Shown: piece after piece, positions 13,916 to 53,261 of the stretch | Numbering within the stretch: position 1 is the stretch's first letter | Layout of the letters: the number at the start of each line of letters is the position of its first letter | Assembly: GCF_000496835.1 (NCBI RefSeq) | Contig: NZ_KI543236.1 | Location: forward strand, 1,176,589-1,240,588 | Direction: 5' to 3' | Source: Thalassobacillus devorans MSP14 | GTDB lineage: Bacteria; Bacillota; Bacilli; Bacillales; Halobacillaceae | DNA: 64,000 nucleotides | Position numbers and translations under genes: made by a program | Notes under the pieces: model-generated | Database searches by the model: none | The model's input: only the letters and a program-made list of their open reading frames with translations | What the model was told of the DNA's origin: nothing

Positions 13916-13933
13916 GTAGTCCGGGCAGGCTTT
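13896..13933. terminator. ccdC/yneK convergent terminator
   Basis: The 11-bp stem AAAGCCTGTCC/GGGCAGGCTTT overlaps the end of ccdC and the stop of yneK. It serves both converging genes. Confidence 0.85.
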
Positions 13934-14366
13934 ATGTTTGTTCATGGAACAAATATTGATAAGGGGTCAGATCTATATTCTTTTGTTCCAGTGTTTTGAT
14001 CAGAAACTTGTGGTCCCGCTTCGGTGTTGCAATAATATAACCTTCGATTATAACATCCTGTGTTATTTTCTTTCGGTTTTTTTTCAGGGCTACTTCCCCG
14101 ATTTTACTTGCAATCTTTTGACGTGCGATATCCCGGAATAGTTCTGGTACTGGAGAAACCAGTTCTTCTAATAATTGCTTATCAGTCTCTCTCCACATAT
14201 GTTTGGTTTTTTCTAAGTAATACTCTTCCCAATCCATATCGGATTTTCCATCTTCTTTTGGAAGCCGTTTTAAAAACTTCCGGAACATAAAGAAGCCGCC
14301 GATACTCAGCAGGACAATCATGATGATGACCCAGCCAATTATGAATGCTGCAAATCCTCCTGACAT
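13932..14366 (-). CDS. yneK: YneK, DUF2621 family protein
   Basis: A 144-residue protein with one N-terminal membrane span (IIGWVIIMIVLLSIGGFFMF) and a basic cytoplasmic domain (MDWEEYYLEKTKHMW, IARQKIASKIGEVAL, ATPKRDHKFLIKTLE). It matches the B. subtilis YneK/DUF2621 layout and position behind ccdC. The function is unknown. It is the last syntenic gene before the selenocysteine locus. Confidence 0.9.
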   Translation of the reverse strand: MSGGFAAFIIGWVIIMIVLLSIGGFFMFRKFLKRLPKEDGKSDMDWEEYYLEKTKHMWRETDKQLLEELVSPVPELFRDIARQKIASKIGEVALKKNRKKITQDVIIEGYIIATPKRDHKFLIKTLEQKNIDLTPYQYLFHEQT

Positions 14367-14486: not shown

Positions 14487-14583
14487 TGGCGGGACTGTGT
14501 GGGAATCGAACCCACCTGAGACGACACGCGCCTCACAAGCAGTTTTGAAGACTGTGGCCTGCACCAGCATAGCAACCAGCCCC
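14487..14583 (-). tRNA. selC: tRNA-Sec (anticodon TCA)
   Basis: This UGA-decoding selenocysteine tRNA is 97 nt long including encoded CCA. The anticodon loop is CTTCAAA (anticodon TCA) on a CAGT/ACTG stem. The long variable arm is TGAGGCG-CGTGT-CGTCTCA, 7 perfect or wobble pairs. The T arm is GTGGG-TTCGATT-CCCAC. The extended D stem GCT(A)TGC/GCAGGC has six pairs with one bulged A and a TGGT loop. The acceptor is 8 bp long, GGGGCTGG against ACAGTCCC, with a mismatch at the inner pair. Long acceptor, D and variable arms are diagnostic of bacterial tRNA-Sec. It opens the sel locus. Confidence 0.95.
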
Positions 14584-14601
14584 ATTTAGGTAACATAAGA
14601 C

Positions 14602-14630
14602 ATTATAAAAGCTGCGTGCTCAAATGACAA
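14602..14630 (-). promoter_or_regulatory. selC promoter
   Basis: On the minus strand, TTGTCA (14625-14630), an exact 17-bp spacer and TATAAT (14602-14607). The start of transcription would fall a few bases before the tRNA 5' end at 14583. Confidence 0.85.
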
Positions 14631-14738
14631 GCTTTTCATTTCCGTATGTTTTTCTCATTTAAATTACATTCTACAACTTGATGTAGCTTTTCAAAGTAGG
14701 ATACTATATATTTAGATAGAAAGGAAGGGGCGGGTAGA

Positions 14739-15836
14739 ATGGGTAACCATGACCTTGGATCATCTGACCAGCAGGGAGAATTTACTCCTTATACATATGT
14801 TAATTATTCCTCTCTACCCGATTGTTTTCAGTCGTGGATTGAACATAATGCAAATGATCTCGTGACGATTTTTGATTTAGAAGGTAATATCAAATATATT
14901 TCTAAATCGGTGACACGGTGGTTAGGGTTTGAAGTAGATGAAGTCCTGCATTCCAAAGCGGGGGACTATCTTCATATCAAAGATCATCATAAGGTACGGG
15001 ATCTGCTTGGACAAAAGCCGGACCAGACTCATCACACGAATTTATTAGTGAAAGATAAAAAGGGCCGATATTTACTGATGCAAACAATGATAGCCAGAAG
15101 ATTCAATCCAGAGGACGGCAACTCTTATATACTGACCATTGCCCAGCATATAACGGACCATAATATGATGGAAGAACAGATGATGCAATCAGAGAAGATG
15201 ACAGTGGCCGGACAGTTGGCTGCCAGTGTAGCCCATGAAATCAGAAACCCGTTGACTTCATTAAAAGGGTTCCTTCAGTTGCTGCAGGCAGGGATAAGTA
15301 AGGAAGAGGAATATTATAAAATCATGTTAGAAGAAATCGAAAAAATGGAGTCTGTCACTTCTGAATTGCTGTTTGTTTCAAAACCAATGACTGATGAACG
15401 GACTAGTGAATCGCTGAAAGAAATGCTGGAAGACGTAATCACTTTAATGAATACACAGGCCAAAATGCAAAGTATAACGATAAGCACGGATATACCAGCA
15501 GGAATTTTCATATTTTGTGATCGATCACAAATCAAACAAGTCTTCATCAATATTATTAAAAATGCCATTGAGGCCATGCAGGAAGGCGGACTTCTGGAGA
15601 TTAAAGTCAGCCGTAGTGAGAACCGGGCGTATATTGATATCATTGACGAGGGCCCGGGGATTCCAGAAGACCTGGGAGAAAAAATAGCCGAGCCATTTTT
15701 TACAACGAAAAAAAATGGCACCGGCTTAGGGCTGATGATCAGCAATCAAATCCTGGATAAACATAACGGGTACATGGAAATCCACCCGAATGCTGATATC
15801 GGAACAACTTTCCGGCTTGTATTACCGGCTGAATGA
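14739..15836 (+). CDS. PAS-domain sensor histidine kinase (sporulation-kinase type)
   Basis: A 365-residue soluble kinase. An N-terminal PAS domain (about 35-145; LVTIFDLEGNIKYISKS, VTRWLGFEVDEV) is followed by HisKA with phospho-acceptor His166 in VAHEIRNPLTSLKGF, then HATPase_c with N box (QVFINIIKNAIEAM), G1 DEGPGIP and G2 GTGLGLMIS. It has no membrane span and no adjacent response regulator. The layout resembles KinA/KinE-type sporulation kinases that feed Spo0F, so a phosphorelay role is possible. It sits between selC and selB with a terminator after it, so its link to selenium is by position only. Confidence 0.9.
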   Translation: MGNHDLGSSDQQGEFTPYTYVNYSSLPDCFQSWIEHNANDLVTIFDLEGNIKYISKSVTRWLGFEVDEVLHSKAGDYLHIKDHHKVRDLLGQKPDQTHHTNLLVKDKKGRYLLMQTMIARRFNPEDGNSYILTIAQHITDHNMMEEQMMQSEKMTVAGQLAASVAHEIRNPLTSLKGFLQLLQAGISKEEEYYKIMLEEIEKMESVTSELLFVSKPMTDERTSESLKEMLEDVITLMNTQAKMQSITISTDIPAGIFIFCDRSQIKQVFINIIKNAIEAMQEGGLLEIKVSRSENRAYIDIIDEGPGIPEDLGEKIAEPFFTTKKNGTGLGLMISNQILDKHNGYMEIHPNADIGTTFRLVLPAE

Positions 15837-15863
15837 CACGTTTGCCATGCAAGCGTGTTTTTT
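15836..15863 (+). terminator. Histidine kinase terminator
   Basis: The 10-bp stem ACACGTTTGC/GCAAGCGTGT with loop CAT is followed by T6. It is only about 40 bp before selB. Confidence 0.88.
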
Positions 15864-15903
15864 CTTATGGATTGCAACCCAGGTGAAAGAAAAGAGGGAT
15901 ATT

Positions 15904-17838
15904 ATGTTGAAGCGTTATTATACGATTGGTATGGCCGGACATATCGATCACGGGAAAACAGCGTTGACGAAGGCTTTGACAGAAGTGGATACCGATCGTC
16001 TGAAAGAAGAGAAGAGCCGCAATATTTCAATCGAACCAGGTTTTGCCCCTTTGAAATTGCAGAACCTTGCTCTGAATGTATCGATCATAGATGTGCCAGG
16101 ACACGAAAAATTCATCAGACAGATGATAGCAGGGGTTGCTGGTATTGATTTGGTTATCATCGTAGTAGCCGGGGATGAGGGCATAATGCCGCAGACCAGG
16201 GAGCATATGGATATTTTATCCTTCCTCGGCGTGGAAGAGGCAATATTGGTTGTCACAAAAGCTGATTTAATTGATAAGCAAATGAAAGAATTAGTAGCAG
16301 AGGACATTCGCTCGTATATAAATGGGAAAAGTTATCAGCATTCGGAGTTGCTATTTATCGATAGCCTTTCCGGAAAGGGAATTTCCGAGCTGGAACAGTT
16401 GATTGAAAAGAAAGTTGCTGTCCAGCCGTATAGGGACACAGCAGGTTCCTTCCGTATGCCGATCGATCAGTCTTTTACTATCAAGGGACAGGGAACGGTG
16501 GTCAGGGGGACGATTTATGAAGGAAGTCTGATGGCTGACGATCCAATCACTATACTTCCCGAACATAAGAAAGCCAGGATCAGGCAGATCCAAGTTCACC
16601 ATGTACCAGTGGAGCAGGCATTTGCAGGGCAACGTGCGGCCGTTAATATTAGCGGTATTGGGAAAGAGGACGTTAAGCGTGGAGATGTTATGGTGAAAAA
16701 TGATGCTTTCCTGGTTACCCGGACTCTGGATGTACGTATGAAATTGGTTGATGAACTCCGTTATACAATCAAACAGCGAACCCCAATAAACGTGTATATT
16801 GGTACTGCGGAAGCTGCTGGAAGATTAGTGTTTTTCGATCGGAACGAGGTGACGGAGGACACAGAAGAAATATTTTGCCAGCTCCGATTAGATGAACCGA
16901 TTGTTGCGAAAAGAGGAGACAGATTCATTCTTCGCAGGCCGACACCAGTAGAAACAATCGGAGGGGGCGTAGTGATCGACCCAAATGCAGGCAAGCATAA
17001 ATTCAGTCATGAGACGATCGAAATGCTGAAAGAGAAAAGCAGGACTACCCCATCAGAATTATTGGAAAACCTGTTACAGACGTACAAATGGATGAATATC
17101 CAGCAGTTACTAAAAGAGACTTCCATGGATACAGCACAATTAGAGAACCTCTTAGCTTCAGAAATAGACGCGAAACGGATCAGGAATGTTAATAAAGGTT
17201 TTATACTCGTTTCGGAAAGTGAGCGAATGCTTAAGGACGTTATGGAGCGTCTGAAAGAGTATCATCAGCTGTACCCGCTCAGGGCAGGTAAAAATAAACC
17301 TGAGGTAGTAACGCAGCTTCCTGTAAAAAAATCTGTAGGCAGTCCGTTGTTAGATGCCTGGATAGAGAGCGGTGAATTAAAAGCAACAGGACCATTTGTG
17401 GCGCTTCCTGAATTTTCACCATATATACCGGAAAAATGGTCGAAGCGGATGAATTTATTAAAAAGTGATTGGATCACCGATGGACTTCAAGTGAAAGAAT
17501 GGAGCGATTATGGAGCTGAACATGGTATACCGGCAGAATGGATGAAAGAATTACGTATGTTCTTTTTGCAACAGAATGCAGCCTGGGAAATAAATGATAA
17601 CCTTATTGTTCATATAAACCCGATTCGCGATCATTTCCAGCGGCTTTACGAGATGACAGGAGATGAATTTTCTTTAAAAGAAGCCAAAGAGTCTTTCCAG
17701 GTATCGCGTAAATACCTTGTTCCTTTATTGGAGAAAAGTGATGATTATGGAATGACCATCAGGGCGGAAAGTGTCAGAAAATGGTTGAAGCAACCTGAAG
17801 TGTATTTTAATTCCGTACATGAACAAGAGGCTGACTAG
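15904..17838 (+). CDS. selB: Selenocysteine-specific elongation factor SelB
   Basis: SelB delivers Sec-tRNA to UGA codons followed by a SECIS hairpin. The start at ATG 15904 (MLKRYYTIGMAGHIDHGKT) follows AAAGAGGGATATT and gives 644 residues, normal for the family; the frame upstream overlaps the kinase. The EF-Tu-like GTPase has G1 AGHIDHGKT (11-19), G3 DVPGHEKF and G4 TKAD. OB-type domains II and III follow (RGTIYEGSL, RFILRRPTPVETIGGG), then about 270 residues of winged-helix repeats that bind SECIS RNA. It faces selD tail to tail. Confidence 0.97.
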   Translation: MLKRYYTIGMAGHIDHGKTALTKALTEVDTDRLKEEKSRNISIEPGFAPLKLQNLALNVSIIDVPGHEKFIRQMIAGVAGIDLVIIVVAGDEGIMPQTREHMDILSFLGVEEAILVVTKADLIDKQMKELVAEDIRSYINGKSYQHSELLFIDSLSGKGISELEQLIEKKVAVQPYRDTAGSFRMPIDQSFTIKGQGTVVRGTIYEGSLMADDPITILPEHKKARIRQIQVHHVPVEQAFAGQRAAVNISGIGKEDVKRGDVMVKNDAFLVTRTLDVRMKLVDELRYTIKQRTPINVYIGTAEAAGRLVFFDRNEVTEDTEEIFCQLRLDEPIVAKRGDRFILRRPTPVETIGGGVVIDPNAGKHKFSHETIEMLKEKSRTTPSELLENLLQTYKWMNIQQLLKETSMDTAQLENLLASEIDAKRIRNVNKGFILVSESERMLKDVMERLKEYHQLYPLRAGKNKPEVVTQLPVKKSVGSPLLDAWIESGELKATGPFVALPEFSPYIPEKWSKRMNLLKSDWITDGLQVKEWSDYGAEHGIPAEWMKELRMFFLQQNAAWEINDNLIVHINPIRDHFQRLYEMTGDEFSLKEAKESFQVSRKYLVPLLEKSDDYGMTIRAESVRKWLKQPEVYFNSVHEQEAD

Positions 17839-17867
17839 GAAAAGTTTTTCCCTTAGCTCAGCCTCTT
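17825..17867. terminator. Bidirectional terminator between selB and selD
   Basis: Outer stem AAGAGGCTGA/TCAGCCTCTT with an inner hairpin (CTAGGAAAAG/CCCTTAG region). It is shared by the converging selB and selD and overlaps the selB stop. Confidence 0.85.
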
Positions 17868-17869
17868 TA

Positions 17870-18928
17870 TTATGGATGGACCCTGATCATTATTGTTTCT
17901 TGTTCTTTTACGTCACCGATTATAGCAGCGGTTGTATCAGCTATTCGGTTAAATGAATCAACATAGGCTTGAGCTTCATCTTTCGGCATAGAAATCAATA
18001 ATCCACCAGAAGTGATAGCATCACATAAAATGAGCTGTTGCGCTTTTGTCAGCTCTTCGTGGTAATTGATACGCCCTGAAAGCCAGGAGTGATTGGCCTT
18101 TGAGCCACCAGGGACTACTCCATTTTCCGCCAGTTCCACTGTCCTTGCAAGTTGTGGAACCTGGCTGTAAGAAATATCGAAACTAACTCCACTGCCCTCG
18201 GCCATTTCAGACGCGTGACCTAAAAGGCCGAAGCCGGTAACATCGGTCACTGCATTTACCTGATAGTCAGCCAGAAGTTCGGAAGCCTTTTTGTTTAAAG
18301 CGGCCATCGTATCAGTTACAAGCTGCTTTTCGTGGGAATCGAGCAGATCCCTCTTTATAGCAGTGGTGTGGATGCCGACGCCAATGGGCTTGGTAAGGAC
18401 AAGGACGTCACCAGCTTTGGCGGTAGAATTTTGAAAGATTTTTTCCGGATGGGCAATACCTGTAACAGCCATGCCGAATTTTGGTTCCTGGTCATCAATC
18501 GAGTGTCCTCCAATGATGTCACCACCAGCTTCAGCCATTTTATCCTGGGCTCCCTGCAGAATCCGGGCTAATATTTCCGGACCTAATTTTTTAATGGGAT
18601 AACCGACGATGTTAAGACCGGTTTTGACTGTACCGCCCATCGCATATATATCACTCAAAGCATTAGCGGCAGCTATTTGGCCAAAATCGTACGCATCATC
18701 AACGATCGGTGTAAAATAATCGACAGATTGAATCATGGCTATCTCTTCTGTCAGTTTATATACACCTGCATCATCATTCGTGCCGGAACCTACTAAGACA
18801 TTTGCATTTGCTTGAGGTGTGTTGATTTGTCGCAGCACGTGCGACAGGTCTTCAGGACCGATTTTGCATCCTCAGCCAGCTTTCGTCGATAATGTGGTCA
18901 ATCGGATGATTTCTTCTTTACTCATCAT
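17870..18928 (-). CDS. selD: Selenophosphate synthetase SelD, a selenoprotein (Sec19)
   Basis: Makes selenophosphate, the selenium donor, from selenide and ATP. A conventional reading stops at TGA 18874-18872, but the frame continues upstream to ATG 18928 behind TAAGGAGGTGG. The N-terminus then reads STKAGUGCKIGPEDL, the canonical SelD active site with selenocysteine at codon 19. Full length is 352 residues. The AIRS-type ATP domain follows (GSGTNDDAGVY, QSVDYFTPIVDD, NALSDIYAMGG), and later TDVTGFGLLGHASEMA. It diverges from selA. Annotation from GTG 18838 would lose the catalytic residue. Confidence 0.96.
18836..18874 (-). promoter_or_regulatory. selD in-frame Sec TGA and downstream SECIS-like hairpin
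   Basis: The Sec codon TGA is at 18874-18872 (minus strand). About 15-20 nt after it the RNA can form GGTC-CTGAA-GACC, a short apical stem with U and G in the loop, above a weaker TGC/GCA base. Size, distance and loop composition fit a bacterial SECIS, which must lie in the coding sequence just after UGA. The fold was drawn by eye. Confidence 0.7.
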
Positions 18929-18990
18929 TCCACCTCCTTAATCCTAGTATAATATACGGTGATAAGAAGAGAAAATCCAGGCGCATTTCG

Positions 18991-19024
18991 GAACCGCTCT
19001 GCACAATTGAAGAGCGGTCATTTT
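18991..19024 (+). terminator. Hairpin in the selD-selA intergenic region
   Basis: The 8-bp perfect stem ACCGCTCT/AGAGCGGT has a 10-nt loop and is followed on the plus strand by CATTTTAATT. It lies about 60 bp before the selA start. It could be a weak terminator or attenuator, or an RNA element in the selA leader; the sequence does not decide. Confidence 0.5.
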
Positions 19025-19081
19025 AATTATAGCTTAAAAATGGATATACTGATAACTGAATAAGGGAGAGGAGGATACAAA

Positions 19082-20479
19082 ATGAATGAATTGCTGCGGC
19101 AAATACCTCCCGTACATGAACTGCAAAAACAGGCTGCCATAGTTGCTATTCGGAAAAAACACAAAGTGACGGAAAAATTATGGACGCAATGGATACAACA
19201 AGCCGCTGCCTCTGTCCGACAAGACATACTAAATGGTGAGCAGATACAAGCGGACAAATTTACAGATATCATCACCAGGAAAGTAAAACAGGCTGCAGAG
19301 CTATGGGAACGGCCTATGTTACATAAAGTAATCAATGCTACAGGGACTGTGCTCCATACCAATCTCGGCAGAGCGAGATTAAGTGAAAAAGCGATTGCCC
19401 GTGTATCAGAAGTGGCTGGAAATTATTCCAATTTAGAGTACGATGTTGAAAAAGGGAAGCGAGGGTCACGCCATACGATATTGGAAGAACGTTTAAAACA
19501 TATAACCGGAGCAGAAGCAGCGATGGTAGTCAATAATAATGCCGGGGCAGTCTACCTTGTGTTAAGAGCATTGGCTAAAGGAAAGAAAGTTATCGTATCA
19601 CGGGGAGAACTGGTAGAAATAGGCGGAAGCTTTCGTGTGTCGAAAGTGATGGAGGAAAGTGATGCAGTCCTGACTGAAGTCGGAACTACCAATAAAACAC
19701 ATCTTTTTGATTATGAGGAAGCTATCGATGAACATGCTGCCATGATCATGAAAGTGCACACGAGTAACTTTTATATGGAAGGGTTTACGGAATCACAACC
19801 GAGCTCAAGCCTCGTACCGTTAGCAAAAGAAAATCATTTGATTTTTTATGAAGATTTAGGCAGCGGCTCGATTGTGGATTATCAGTCCAGACATATTGGC
19901 AAAGAACCAGTAGTAAGCGATGTGCTGGCCACAGGAGCAGATATCGTATCATTCAGTGGGGACAAATTATTAGGAGGACCGCAGGCTGGTATCATAGCGG
20001 GAAAAAAGAAATATATCGACGTATTGAAAAAACATCAGCTGGCACGAGTGCTTCGGGTAGATAAAATGACACTGGCAGCCCTGGAAAGTACGTTGCTGGA
20101 ATACGACCGGGAGGATCTTTCAGAAGGAAATTCCGTTTATCGGGATATTATAAAAACAGCAGAGGAAATAAATACAATTACCGAAGTCTTTGTAAGAGAT
20201 TTGGGATCTTTACAAAAACTGAATGTTGAAACTCAGGTACATCCTTCCAAAGTTGGAGGGGGGACCATGCCGAAAGTCGAACTTCCAAGCTGCGGTATCC
20301 GTGTTACATCGCCTGAAATGGCTGCTCATGAGATTGAAAAGTTTTTACGTATGTACCATCCTGCGATTATTGGACGCTTCGTTGATCATGCTTATTTTCT
20401 CGATTTCCGTACCGTGGGAGAAACGGAAATCGAGATATTAAAACAAGCTATGCAAGAGCTGGACAATTACATGTCATGA
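19082..20479 (+). CDS. selA: L-seryl-tRNA(Sec) selenium transferase SelA
   Basis: Converts Ser-tRNA(Sec) to Sec-tRNA(Sec) with selenophosphate. The 465-residue PLP enzyme has the family N-terminus (LLRQIPPVHEL), the cofactor region (GAEAAMVVNNNAGAVYLVL) and the PLP lysine Lys295 in SFSGDKLLGGPQAG, the same position as in E. coli SelA. It starts at ATG 19082 behind GGGAGAGGAGG. Its last 13 bp overlap the antisense end of sspP. Confidence 0.97.
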   Translation: MNELLRQIPPVHELQKQAAIVAIRKKHKVTEKLWTQWIQQAAASVRQDILNGEQIQADKFTDIITRKVKQAAELWERPMLHKVINATGTVLHTNLGRARLSEKAIARVSEVAGNYSNLEYDVEKGKRGSRHTILEERLKHITGAEAAMVVNNNAGAVYLVLRALAKGKKVIVSRGELVEIGGSFRVSKVMEESDAVLTEVGTTNKTHLFDYEEAIDEHAAMIMKVHTSNFYMEGFTESQPSSSLVPLAKENHLIFYEDLGSGSIVDYQSRHIGKEPVVSDVLATGADIVSFSGDKLLGGPQAGIIAGKKKYIDVLKKHQLARVLRVDKMTLAALESTLLEYDREDLSEGNSVYRDIIKTAEEINTITEVFVRDLGSLQKLNVETQVHPSKVGGGTMPKVELPSCGIRVTSPEMAAHEIEKFLRMYHPAIIGRFVDHAYFLDFRTVGETEIEILKQAMQELDNYMS

Positions 20480-20577
20480 GAAGCGTGCTTTTTTTGACGG
20501 GAATGGTTGCGGTTTTTCACTTTTTTTGAACCTTTTAAGGGTTGGTTTGGTTGTTTGTCTTTTCTTGAGTGTGTCAA
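20467..20577 (-). CDS. sspP: Small acid-soluble spore protein P
   Basis: A 36-residue basic spore protein. The C-terminus GSKKVKNRNHSRQKKHASHD matches SspP of B. subtilis. The start is a TTG at 20577 (THSRKDKQPNQPL after the initiator), set by AAAGGAG 7 bp upstream. Its stop lies inside the 3' end of selA on the other strand. sspP next to sspO and citB is the B. subtilis order. It should be made in the forespore; I could not fix a sigma-G promoter. Confidence 0.9.
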   Translation of the reverse strand: MTHSRKDKQPNQPLKGSKKVKNRNHSRQKKHASHDM

Positions 20578-20750
20578 AGTTATCGCTCCTTTCTTACTTA
20601 GGATTTGAAATTTTGTATAGGGATATGTATGGAAAACTTTTGGCTGGTGCAAGCTATTCAATACAACCTGGTTTATCCCCTGATTTTTATTGCCTTGGTT
20701 TTCCATAATGCTGTTTTCCTTTAATAAAGTTCAAAAAAAGAGGTGTCTTT
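20578..20750. other. Divergent promoter region of sspP and the 20751 gene
   Basis: The region is T-rich. sspP would be read leftward and the small helical protein rightward. I see no operator that I can name. Confidence 0.4.
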
Positions 20751-21051: not shown

Positions 21052-21201
21052 TTACTGGTTTTTCTTTTTCTTTTTATTGAACATTCTTTCTTCCGCGGTC
21101 AATGGTTCACGCGGGGTTTCTTCTTGATATCCTGCACCGCCACCTTGTGCTTTTGCGTCATTCATTCCTGGTCGTACATGGTTCGCTTTTCTAGTTGTCA
21201 C
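21052..21201 (-). CDS. sspO: Small acid-soluble spore protein O
   Basis: A 49-residue basic spore protein. [20 protein letters not shown], then a [16 protein letters not shown] end, matches SspO (CotK). GTG 21201 was chosen because AAGGAGGTGGCGACG precedes it; the longer frame upstream has no ribosome site. It diverges from citB, as in B. subtilis (sspO-citB). Confidence 0.93.
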
Positions 21202-21396
21202 CGTCGCCACCTCCTTCCCATATCTATAGTGTGACAAAAATTGACCAATTTAATTTACTTCTAAATCGTTTTCATTTACAATGATAGATGCATATTTGTG
21301 AACTTTTTCTGAAAAAAGTAACAAATCGAATTTATCGAATAGTGTAATCCATTGATTGAGCACTATTCAATTCCATCTGAGGGGGTAAGAGGAAAA

Positions 21397-24105
21397 TTGG
21401 CAAACAATAATGCTTACAATGCAAAAAAACAATTTGAACTCAATGGTAAGTCCTACAACTACTACCAACTGAAAGCATTAGAAGATGCTGGATTAGGCAA
21501 AGTTTCACGGTTGCCTTTCTCCATCCGTATCTTGCTGGAATCATTGCTTCGTCAACATGATGGCCGTGTCATCAAAGATGAGCATGTGGAAAGCCTTGCA
21601 AAATGGGGTACGAAAGATGCAAAAGGGGAAGACGTACCTTTCAAACCGTCTCGTGTAATCCTGCAGGACTTTACAGGGGTACCTGCTGTGGTTGACCTTG
21701 CTTCATTACGAAAAGCAATGGTTGATATGGGAGGAAGCCCGGAAAAAATCAATCCTGAAGTTCCTGTCGACCTTGTAATCGACCACTCTGTCCAGGTGGA
21801 TGCTTATGGTACAGAAAAAGCATTACAAGTAAATATGGAGCTGGAATTTGAACGGAATGCAGAGCGCTATGAGTTCCTTCATTGGGCTCAAAAAGCCTTT
21901 GATAACTACCGTGCGGTTCCACCAGCGACTGGTATCGTCCACCAGGTAAACCTCGAATACCTGGCTAATGTTGTACACGCTGTTGAGAATGAAGACGGCG
22001 AAACTGATACTTATCCTGATACACTTGTCGGTACTGACTCCCATACAACCATGATCAATGGTCTAGGTATCCTTGGCTGGGGTGTCGGCGGTATCGAAGC
22101 GGAAGCAGGAATGCTTGGTCAGCCTTCTTACTTCCCTGCACCTGAAGTTGTAGGTGTCAAGCTGAAAGGAAGCTTCCCGAATGGAACGACTGCTACTGAC
22201 TTAGCTTTGAAAGTAACCCAAGTGTTACGTGAAAAGAAAGTTGTCGGTAAGTTTGTTGAATTCTTCGGCCCTGGTCTTCAGGAAATGCCGCTTGCAGACC
22301 GTGCAACCATTTCTAACATGGCTCCTGAATATGGTGCAACTTGCGGTTTCTTCCCGGTAGATGGGGAATCCCTTGATTACCTGCGCCTGACAGGACGCAG
22401 TGAAGAGCAGATCGAACTTGTAGAAAAATACTGCAAAGAGAATGATCTATGGTATTCTCCAGAACTTCCAGATCCGGAATTTACAGAGCTTGTTGAAATC
22501 GATCTTTCCGAGCTGGAACCGAACTTGTCTGGTCCTAAGCGTCCGCAGGACTTGATTCCACTTTCTAAAATGAAGGAATCCTTTAACCAGGCGTTGACAG
22601 CTCCGACTGGCCCTCAAGGCTTCGGCTTAGATAAAGACGAGATCGAAAAAGAAGTTACTTTCGACCTGGATAACGGAAAGACTACCACAATGAAGACAGG
22701 TGCGCTGGCTATCGCAGCGATCACTTCCTGTACCAATACCTCCAATCCGCACGTCATGCTGGGAGCAGGATTGGTAGCTAAAAAAGCGGTCGAAAAAGGC
22801 TTGGAAGTTCCTGAGTATGTCAAAACTTCCCTTGCACCAGGTTCTAAAGTGGTTACACGCTACCTGGAAGATTCAAACCTGATGGAATACTTGAACCAGC
22901 TAGGTTTCAACCTGGTCGGTTACGGTTGTACTACATGTATCGGTAACTCCGGTCCATTGAAGCCGGAAATCGAAGAAGCGATTGCAAGCAGCGACTTGAC
23001 TGTCTCTTCCGTACTATCCGGTAACCGTAACTTCGAAGGACGTATCCACCCGCTTGTAAAAGCGAACTATCTTGCTTCACCACCATTGGTCGTCGCTTAT
23101 GCGTTAGCTGGTACTGTGGATATCGATCTGAAAAACGAACCGATCGGAAAAGATAAGGATGGCAACGATGTATTCTTCCAGGACATCTGGCCATCCCAGG
23201 AAGAAGTCAAAAAAGAAGTTGCACGTGCTGTAACTCCAGAAATCTTCCGCAAAGAATACGAAAATGTATTTAACTCCAACGAAAAATGGAATGAAATCGA
23301 TACAACCGATGAGCCATTGTACGATTGGGACAGTGAGTCTACTTACATCCAGAACCCTCCATTCTTCGAAGGACTGTCTGCAGAACCGGATACAGTTAAG
23401 CCATTGAATAATCTCAGAGCTATCGGTAAATTCGGTGATTCTGTAACGACTGACCATATTTCACCAGCTGGTGCGATCCCGAAAGATATGCCTGCCGGTG
23501 AATACTTACAGGAAAAAGGCGTTTCACCACGTAACTTCAACTCATATGGTTCCCGTCGTGGTAACCATGAAGTCATGATGCGTGGTACGTTTGCCAACAT
23601 CCGTATCCGAAACGAACTGGCTCCAGGTACAGAAGGCGGCTATACTACTTACTGGCCAACAGAAGAAGTTATGCCGATCTATACTGCTGCTATGAAATAT
23701 CAGCAGGATGATACAGGGTTACTTGTCATTGCTGGTAAAGACTATGGTATGGGAAGCTCTCGTGACTGGGCTGCCAAAGGTACTGACCTTCTTGGCATCA
23801 AAACAGTCATTGCAGAAAGCTTTGAACGGATCCATCGTTCCAACCTTGTGATGATGGGTGTACTGCCATTACAATTCCAGGATGGCGACACAATTGATTC
23901 TCTAGGTTTAACCGGCCGTGAGACATTCAACGTCGAAGTTGGAGAAAACGTCAAGCCTCATGATCTTCTAGATGTGACTGCAGTTGACGAAGAAGGCAAC
24001 AAAAAAGAATTCCAGGTTGTCGCACGCTTTGATAGTGAAGTGGAAATCGATTACTACCGCCATGGTGGTATCCTGCAAATGGTACTCCGCAATAAGTTGA
24101 AGTAA
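21397..24105 (+). CDS. citB: Aconitate hydratase (AcnA/CitB type)
   Basis: Interconverts citrate and isocitrate in the TCA cycle; in Bacillus the apo-form also binds RNA. The start is placed at TTG 21397 ([13 protein letters not shown]), which aligns with the family N-terminus and follows GAGGGGGTAAGAGG, giving 902 residues. The Fe-S cluster ligands are the Cys of [11 protein letters not shown] and the two in [10 protein letters not shown]. The C-terminal swivel domain has [15 protein letters not shown] and [11 protein letters not shown]. It is monocistronic, with a strong terminator. I found no convincing CcpC box. Confidence 0.95.
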
Positions 24106-29432: not shown

Positions 29433-29720
29433 TCAGACATAATGGAATTCAGGTTCTTCCCAGGTAGAATTGTAATCTACCTTCAATGATTTATCATCAA
29501 AATACCATGCGTCTGACTCTTCGACAAAGAAGGTAATTCCATTAACTTCTGTGGAGGTATGCGGTTCAGCAGGTTCCTCCAGTTGAATAGCTAAAGAGAA
29601 CCCTGGCTGCAGACCACCTGAACCACCGTAACGCACTAAAAAGCGTAGTGCTGCATCTTTTTCAATATCGAGTTCATCTTGATACCATTTTGCTGCTTCT
29701 TCTGTTACTTCAATATTCAT
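29433..29720 (-). CDS. yneR: HesB/YneR-like protein
   Basis: A 95-residue protein of the HesB-like fold (YGGSGGLQPGFSLAI, ITFFVEESDAWYFDD). It has no cysteines, so it cannot be a classic IscA/SufA Fe-S carrier; this matches the YneR subgroup. ATG 29720 (MNIEVTEEAAKWY) follows GGGGTTG; the longer frame is leader. Confidence 0.9.
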   Translation of the reverse strand: MNIEVTEEAAKWYQDELDIEKDAALRFLVRYGGSGGLQPGFSLAIQLEEPAEPHTSTEVNGITFFVEESDAWYFDDKSLKVDYNSTWEEPEFHYV

Positions 29721-53007: not shown

Positions 53008-53079
53008 TAAAAAACCGCACCTAAGGGATAGGTACAGCTCCATCCTTAGTTTTTTATAGAGGGTGTAGCTAGAACCTCT
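53008..53079 (-). promoter_or_regulatory. preQ1-I riboswitch with transcription terminator
   Basis: The aptamer at 53079-53046 (minus strand) has the class I hallmarks: stem AGAGG/CCTCT, loop TTCTAGCTACA, an A-rich tail and the final CTAA that forms the pseudoknot. After it, CTAAGG can pair with CCTTAG (antiterminator), or GTACCTA with TAGGTGC to give a terminator followed by T6 (53014-53008). Ligand binding takes the CTAA, frees the terminator and shuts off queCDE. Confidence 0.95.
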
Positions 53080-53261
53080 CCTGCGGAAATAATTGCCCGC
53101 AGACTTTTATTAATTTTTGTTCGACCCTAGTATAACAGACGTATCCTGTGATGTCATTGTCAATATCTCTAATAGTATTGGAATCAGGGCTGACTTCTTA
53201 TATACTATAGGGGGGTTAGCCGCCAGGGGAATATACGAGAGAAAGAGGCAGAATAGAGAAT
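53080..53261. other. Divergent region between the riboswitch and the HExxH gene
   Basis: Holds the queC promoter (minus strand) and the leader of the HExxH gene. A TTGTCA (about 53157) and a run of six G (53212) are visible. No small RNA or operator can be named. Confidence 0.4.

Follow-up and report, generated by a model that had tools for sequence, protein, structure and literature searches.

The genome of Thalassobacillus devorans MSP14 carries a set of selenocysteine (Sec) genes between yneK on one side and sspP and a presumed citB on the other, which raises the questions of whether this locus was inherited or gained, whether it still works, and which proteins it serves. The stretch of DNA analyzed here (64,000 nucleotides, referred to as the window) holds genes for tRNA-Sec, SelB, SelD and SelA at 14487–20479, as described in an earlier note on this DNA, and the three Sec proteins score above curated family cut-offs. 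With a probability of roughly 0.8, judged from comparison of genomes, this is an ancestral, vertically inherited Bacillaceae Sec locus that is still subject to purifying selection and most likely functional. Its components are:

14487–14583 (−): selC, tRNA-Sec with anticodon TCA (ARAGORN; Rfam RF01852, 61.9 bits, gathering score 47)
15907–17838 (+): selB, Sec-specific elongation factor (TIGR00475, 331.9 bits, cut-off 242.25)
17870–18925 (−): selD, selenophosphate synthetase, a predicted selenoprotein (TIGR00476, 367.6 bits, cut-off 125)
18872–18874 (−): in-frame TGA in selD, predicted to be read as Sec (read-through translation and comparison of selD genes)
18828–18846 (−): hairpin of the Sec insertion sequence type, loop CGUGC with GU (fold and covariation count)
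19082–20479 (+): selA, selenocysteine synthase (TIGR00474, 525.6 bits, cut-off 267.9; PF03841)

SelB has the expected architecture, with a β-barrel and two C-terminal winged-helix domains recognized by Pfam (PF25461, PF09106, PF09107). The genes were previously described as intact. This holds for selA and selB, which contain no stops, but selD is intact only if an in-frame TGA is read as Sec. SelD is therefore itself a predicted selenoprotein, a feature missed earlier. The plain open reading frame (ORF) list begins selD at GTG 18838, while the actual start lies near 18925, with AAGGAGG upstream. Upstream of the GTG the frame runs through the TGA at 18872–18874 (−), and read-through gives MSKEEIIRLTTLSTKAG-TGA-GCKIGPEDL, placing the Sec residue (U) in the context KAG-U-GCKIGPEDL. 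Of 72 selD genes compared, 71 have a TGA at this position; the remaining one (L116) is truncated and unreadable. Each of the nine SelD genes over the cut-off in 44 family genomes contains exactly one.

The hairpin begins 28 bases past the T of the selD TGA. Among 68 distinct sequences, 94.5% of the cells at its seven pairs are paired, and three of the pairs account for 22 compensatory cells; controls in which the 3′ side was slid by 1–3 columns are 19–59% paired with 0–8 compensatory cells, two of the six reaching 7 and 8. GU is present in the loop of all 68 sequences. The covariation figures come from a scripted count in which related sequences are counted separately, leaving out L070 (same genome as L082) and the unreadable L116. 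Folding of the single window sequence gives a z score of −2.24 for a 53-nt stretch. A few SelD proteins have LAQVLC in place of LAQVLR where the hairpin stem has changed, the protein sequence apparently being shaped by the RNA fold.

SelA exceeds its cut-off in nine of the 44 family genomes: all five of the window's genus (g1), four of 11 in genus g4 and none of the remaining 28, weaker matches under the cut-off being found in most. The five genus genomes are that of the window (G000), G040, G041, G042 and Thalassobacillus pellis (G043). All five have yneK, selC, a kinase gene, selB, selD, selA and citB in the same order and at the same site, with selA, selB and the kinase gene stop-free and a single TGA in selD. 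The presence of the locus at one place in all five is what the earlier note had named as the mark of an ancestral, not unusual, locus. No sel genes occur in eight other yneK–citB intervals, from five genomes without SelA over the cut-off and three g4 genomes that carry SelA elsewhere.

In a wider comparison, selA is followed by a citB homologue in the same orientation at 67 of 88 loci (gap 161–4911 bases, median 1154), a set made up of eight family relatives and the best 80 loci by SelA similarity and thus not an even sample. In the SelA tree the window groups with T. pellis and its sisters (support 98), beside Pontibacillus marinus and Salirhabdus (88), and with the citB-linked loci. This tree of 87 rows, without L070 and L071 (selA match in two pieces), was built by a quick method with support from the Shimodaira–Hasegawa-like approximate likelihood ratio test only, and its deepest forks are weak. 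The locus had been called either a rare retention or a gain. Retention is supported by its presence throughout the genus, the recurrent Bacillaceae site and the SelA tree; gain is not, and rarity does not apply, as 179 of 397 genomes sampled from the order have a SelB above its cut-off. The gene order does differ from that of a selA–selB operon, but other genera of the family share it. Among Bacillaceae this is an ordinary locus, intact and inherited.

A second type of Sec locus, here termed the island type, comprises 13 loci with the order selD–selC–selB–selA and no citB, belonging to four g4 genomes, Terrihalobacillus, Sediminibacillus and Planococcaceae. The two types are separated on the SelA tree by one change when eight rows classed as other are left aside; counting those, there are three changes for the island type and six for the citB type. 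Glycosyltransferase-like and PhnD/E/C-like transporter genes accompany 13 of 13 island loci (54–100% identity), a TGA-containing thioredoxin gene was found in nine of the 13 in the stretch examined, and the island type has probably spread laterally. The window locus is not of this type: its gene order differs, it is linked to citB, and of the island-type neighbors (glycosyltransferase-like, PhnDEC-like, TGA thioredoxin) the PhnC-like ATPase alone has a match in the window, at 27%. The occurrence in one family of two Sec locus types that lie apart on the SelA tree allows their inheritance to be compared. The PhnD/PhnE/PhnC-like ABC transporter genes lie near selD in all 13 island loci (L064:14321–16862 and equivalents), and PhnD-like proteins of 45–64% identity occur in six citB-type loci (L088, L109, L112, L134, L149, L152); the transporter is a candidate selenium importer. 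The thioredoxin active site reads DWUPGC, DWUPSC or NGUGPC in the four g4 genomes, Sediminibacillus and some Planococcaceae (L064:17589–17966 and equivalents).

Which proteins use the Sec machinery was addressed near sel loci and in the window's genome. Conserved TGA genes beside Bacillaceae sel loci, among the matches listed, encode SelW-like, thioredoxin-like, GrdB-like, HesB-like and FdhA proteins. SelW is present in 72 of 89 loci (window included), always with a TGA, and some of the 17 loci without it end early. TGA scans gave many antisense or off-frame stretches, which were filtered by overlap with long ORFs and, in one scan, also by the share of U, C and S at the site. Seven families besides SelD were searched in G000: formate dehydrogenase (FDH), GrdB, SelW, HesB, thioredoxin, AhpC-TSA and DsbA. 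AhpC-TSA gave 15 matches, one carrying one TGA.

This TGA lies in a peroxiredoxin (Prx) gene (G000:C2:952367–952960) with syntenic copies in G040 and G042, and thus in three of the five genus genomes, at the peroxidatic position (FTFV-U-PTE), where the Sec codon aligns with a Cys of 4k1f. The TGA is followed by a hairpin (z −2.99 in G000), one stem pair of which varies from A–T in G000 to G–T in G040 and G–C in G042. Over the 139 codons past the TGA, the ratio of nonsynonymous to synonymous substitution rates (dN/dS) is 0.143 for G000–G040, and 0.032 for G000–G042 and 0.044 for G040–G042, the latter two taken at high synonymous divergence. The closest NCBIfam family is PrxU (NF040737), and since its cut-off of 270 bits is not reached (163.2 in G040, 148.1 in G000) the protein is called PrxU-like only. 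In G041 the gene (L238:12791–13106) has been deleted except for its 19 last codons, which lie next to a shortened neighbor gene.

The peroxiredoxin overturns SelD as the sole client in G000 and bears out, for one protein, the earlier expectation of selenoproteins elsewhere in the genome; FDH and the other families searched are not Sec-encoded there. In G000 four long genes resembling FDH lack an internal stop and have a Cys at the apparent active site, ruling them out as clients, and four weaker matches fall within one stop-free frame of 1230 residues. There is no match to GrdB in G000; this protein was found in one of the 44 family genomes (G024), outside the window's genus, and was rejected as a client of the genus. 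SelW has no match in G000 and was not found in four of the five genus genomes, T. pellis having a SelW with TGA. None of three HesB matches and four DsbA matches in G000 contains a stop, and none of 13 thioredoxin matches (E up to 1) contains a TGA. A HesB-like protein within the window at 29466–29720 (−) was likewise rejected, having RYGGSGG at the site and no TGA. Marginal thioredoxin-profile matches with one TGA in G041 and G042 (E 0.35 and 0.48), each in a 53-residue frame, are treated as chance.

Other genomes yielded further observations on clients and on the sel genes. Near the Sec locus of G024, a gene for a GrdB-family protein (L071:12076–12879) contains two in-frame TGAs, which fall in a UPIU motif, and a second GrdB-like TGA gene (PGUPVC) lies nearby in L081. 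The selA of G024 (L071:9029–10401) and the selB of G030 (L065:10665–12565) are each split into two frames, for which frameshift, decay and assembly error are candidate causes.

SelU (TIGR03167) exceeds its cut-off in eight of the nine Sec-bearing family genomes; in G000 it scores 316.2 bits (cut-off 219.75) and occurs together with SelD over cut-off. Within the families searched, G000, G040 and G042 thus have SelD, Prx and SelU, G041 has SelD and SelU, and T. pellis has SelD and SelW. The two FDH orthologues of G041 compared at syntenic sites have Cys. In the families searched, no credible selenoprotein other than SelD was found in that genome.

In the two closest genome pairs (G000–G040 and G041–G042) dN/dS of selA, selB and selD is 0.097–0.141, with 0.097–0.129 in the G041–G042 pair. 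Downstream of the TGA, selD gives 0.094 and 0.102 in these pairs. Coding constraint in both selD and the peroxiredoxin gene extends past the TGAs.

How Sec is synthesized is established knowledge for these protein families, and each of the Sec and SelU enzymes is presumably active. SelD would make selenophosphate for both SelA and SelU. SelA would convert Ser-tRNA-Sec to Sec-tRNA-Sec, which SelB would deliver at UGA codons that precede a short GU-loop hairpin; the recoded genes found in G000 that would be served are selD and the PrxU-like peroxiredoxin. SelU would use selenophosphate to form 2-selenouridine in tRNA. With no SelD found other than the UGA-encoded one, SelU would depend on the Sec machinery, and loss of SelA, SelB or selC would entail loss of selenouridine too. 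This dependence could explain purifying selection on the machinery while its clients vanish: SelA, SelB and tRNA-Sec may persist, as hostages, largely because UGA-encoded SelD is needed for selenouridine. It is interesting to speculate that in some Thalassobacillus, most clearly G041, SelD is the sole selenoprotein and the Sec apparatus survives because SelU needs its selenophosphate, a proposal that is tentative and stands well below even odds. If true, one recoded codon would couple expansion of the genetic code with tRNA modification, and one Sec-to-Cys change in SelD would make the Sec apparatus dispensable.

Several points weigh against a working locus under selection. The Sec genes change faster than their neighbors (for G000–G040, selA is 82% identical with dN/dS 0.141, and citB 97% with 0.029), which could reflect weakening constraint, and several saturated genome pairs yielded no dN/dS. 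The G000 peroxiredoxin lacks the six residues FYASDF just before Sec, leaving only TFV-U-PTE; 4k1f, its best-matching solved relative, has FYPLDF at this place, and the shortened protein may be failing. Single-sequence folds are weak evidence (selD −1.21 in a first framing; the T. pellis SelW stretch +0.30), so that the covariation count is the stronger evidence for the hairpin. Finally, T. pellis has no SelU over cut-off, so that SelU is not the sole reason for retention of the locus in the genus; SelW is likely the reason there.

Taken further, the faster protein change, the absence of SelW from the matches in four genomes, and the shortening and deletion of Prx in G000 and G041 could mean that the Sec genes have outlived their use and are in decay. 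This is improbable, given that G000 and G041 both keep stop-free selA and selB, a single-TGA selD and tRNA-Sec, and that dN/dS in the G041–G042 pair remains low despite the Prx loss in G041 (the age of that loss being left out of account). Lateral transfer of the locus into the spore-gene block would fit its absence from most family genomes (SelA over cut-off in nine of 44) and the existence in the same family of the movable-looking second type, in g4 genomes, which groups with Planococcaceae. It is nonetheless highly improbable: the window locus is of the citB-linked type found at the same place in many Bacillaceae genera, and its SelA groups with those genera, away from the island type, in a tree whose deep branches are weak and which has no species-tree reconciliation behind it. 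Inheritance with continued function is therefore preferred. What maintains that function is less certain. Selenoprotein families outside the search may keep the machinery, making the SelD dependence incidental; the search in G000 covered only seven families besides SelD, and one of the seven gave a client. Conversely, the five families with TGA genes beside Bacillaceae sel loci (SelW, thioredoxin, GrdB, HesB and FdhA) were among those searched and gave no TGA copy in G000, and unsearched clients are a serious possibility that falls somewhat short of an even chance.

The Sec genes lie in the order yneK–selC–kinase–selB–selD–selA–citB, with these neighbors:

13932–14366 (−): DUF2621 (PF11084), left flank, for which the name yneK is the earlier note's label
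14739–15836 (+): PAS/HisKA/HATPase sensor kinase, between selC and selB (Pfam)
20467–20706 (−): sspP, right flank (PF08179; NCBIfam match under cut-off)
21052–21237 (−): sspO (TIGR02864, 73.7 bits)
21352–24105 (+): long ORF, presumably citB (aconitase; ORF list)

The ends of sspP and selA overlap by 13 bases, and a small ORF sits between sspP and sspO. The last ORF, if it is citB as assumed, marks the common Bacillaceae site of the sel locus. The sensor kinase was considered as part of the Sec system and set aside as a resident neighbor, since in G001, a genome with neither SelA nor SelD over cut-off, a homologue (41% identity) occupies the yneK–citB interval. A PreQ1 riboswitch is present elsewhere in the window at 53040–53084 (−) (44.2 bits).

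Few proteins found here still use Sec, and one of them is the locus's own selenium-activating enzyme. The interest of the system lies in a series of close genomes that lose clients while the machinery stays intact, and in the link between SelD and SelU. No paper on selenocysteine in Thalassobacillus or a selenoprotein in Halobacillus was found in the openly licensed literature, and, as far as openly licensed titles and abstract openings tell, none treats SelD as the only selenoprotein or the horizontal spread of Bacillaceae selenoproteins in a case like this. Zhang et al. (2006; PMC1794560) give three families and three selenoproteins for the Bacillales and report FdhA or SelD in every selenoproteome, adding that the Sec trait may be upheld largely by one of these proteins or by the two together. 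With FDH-like genes using Cys, SelW not found in four of five genomes and Prx shortened or deleted, the SelD part of that idea, as worded there, becomes directly testable.

Compared with the bacterial Sec-decoding trait as known, the locus has all four components (tRNA-Sec, SelA, SelB and SelD), and the SelB winged helices, while selD and, elsewhere in the genome, the peroxiredoxin gene have an in-frame TGA with a hairpin just downstream and constraint beyond. The locus differs from a selAB operon in gene order, which recurs in Bacillaceae; no difference in mechanism was seen. Sec-containing SelD, which ranks second among selenoproteins by breadth of occurrence in PMC5029168 (Table 3), is matched in the UGCK motif and the hairpin past the TGA; here the Sec form is found in 71 of 71 readable SelD. 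The peroxiredoxin resembles PrxU as its best NCBIfam match with a TGA at the peroxidatic site, and differs in falling under the cut-off and, in G000, in being six residues short. Sec organisms without known selenoproteins also exist, according to PMC5029168. There is a further parallel with single-client Sec systems, exemplified in PMC4561486 by C. elegans, in which an entire pathway is likewise maintained for very few proteins. In contrast to these systems, SelD would itself be the last of the clients found in G041, an arrangement that is understandable only because selenophosphate is required by SelU as well.

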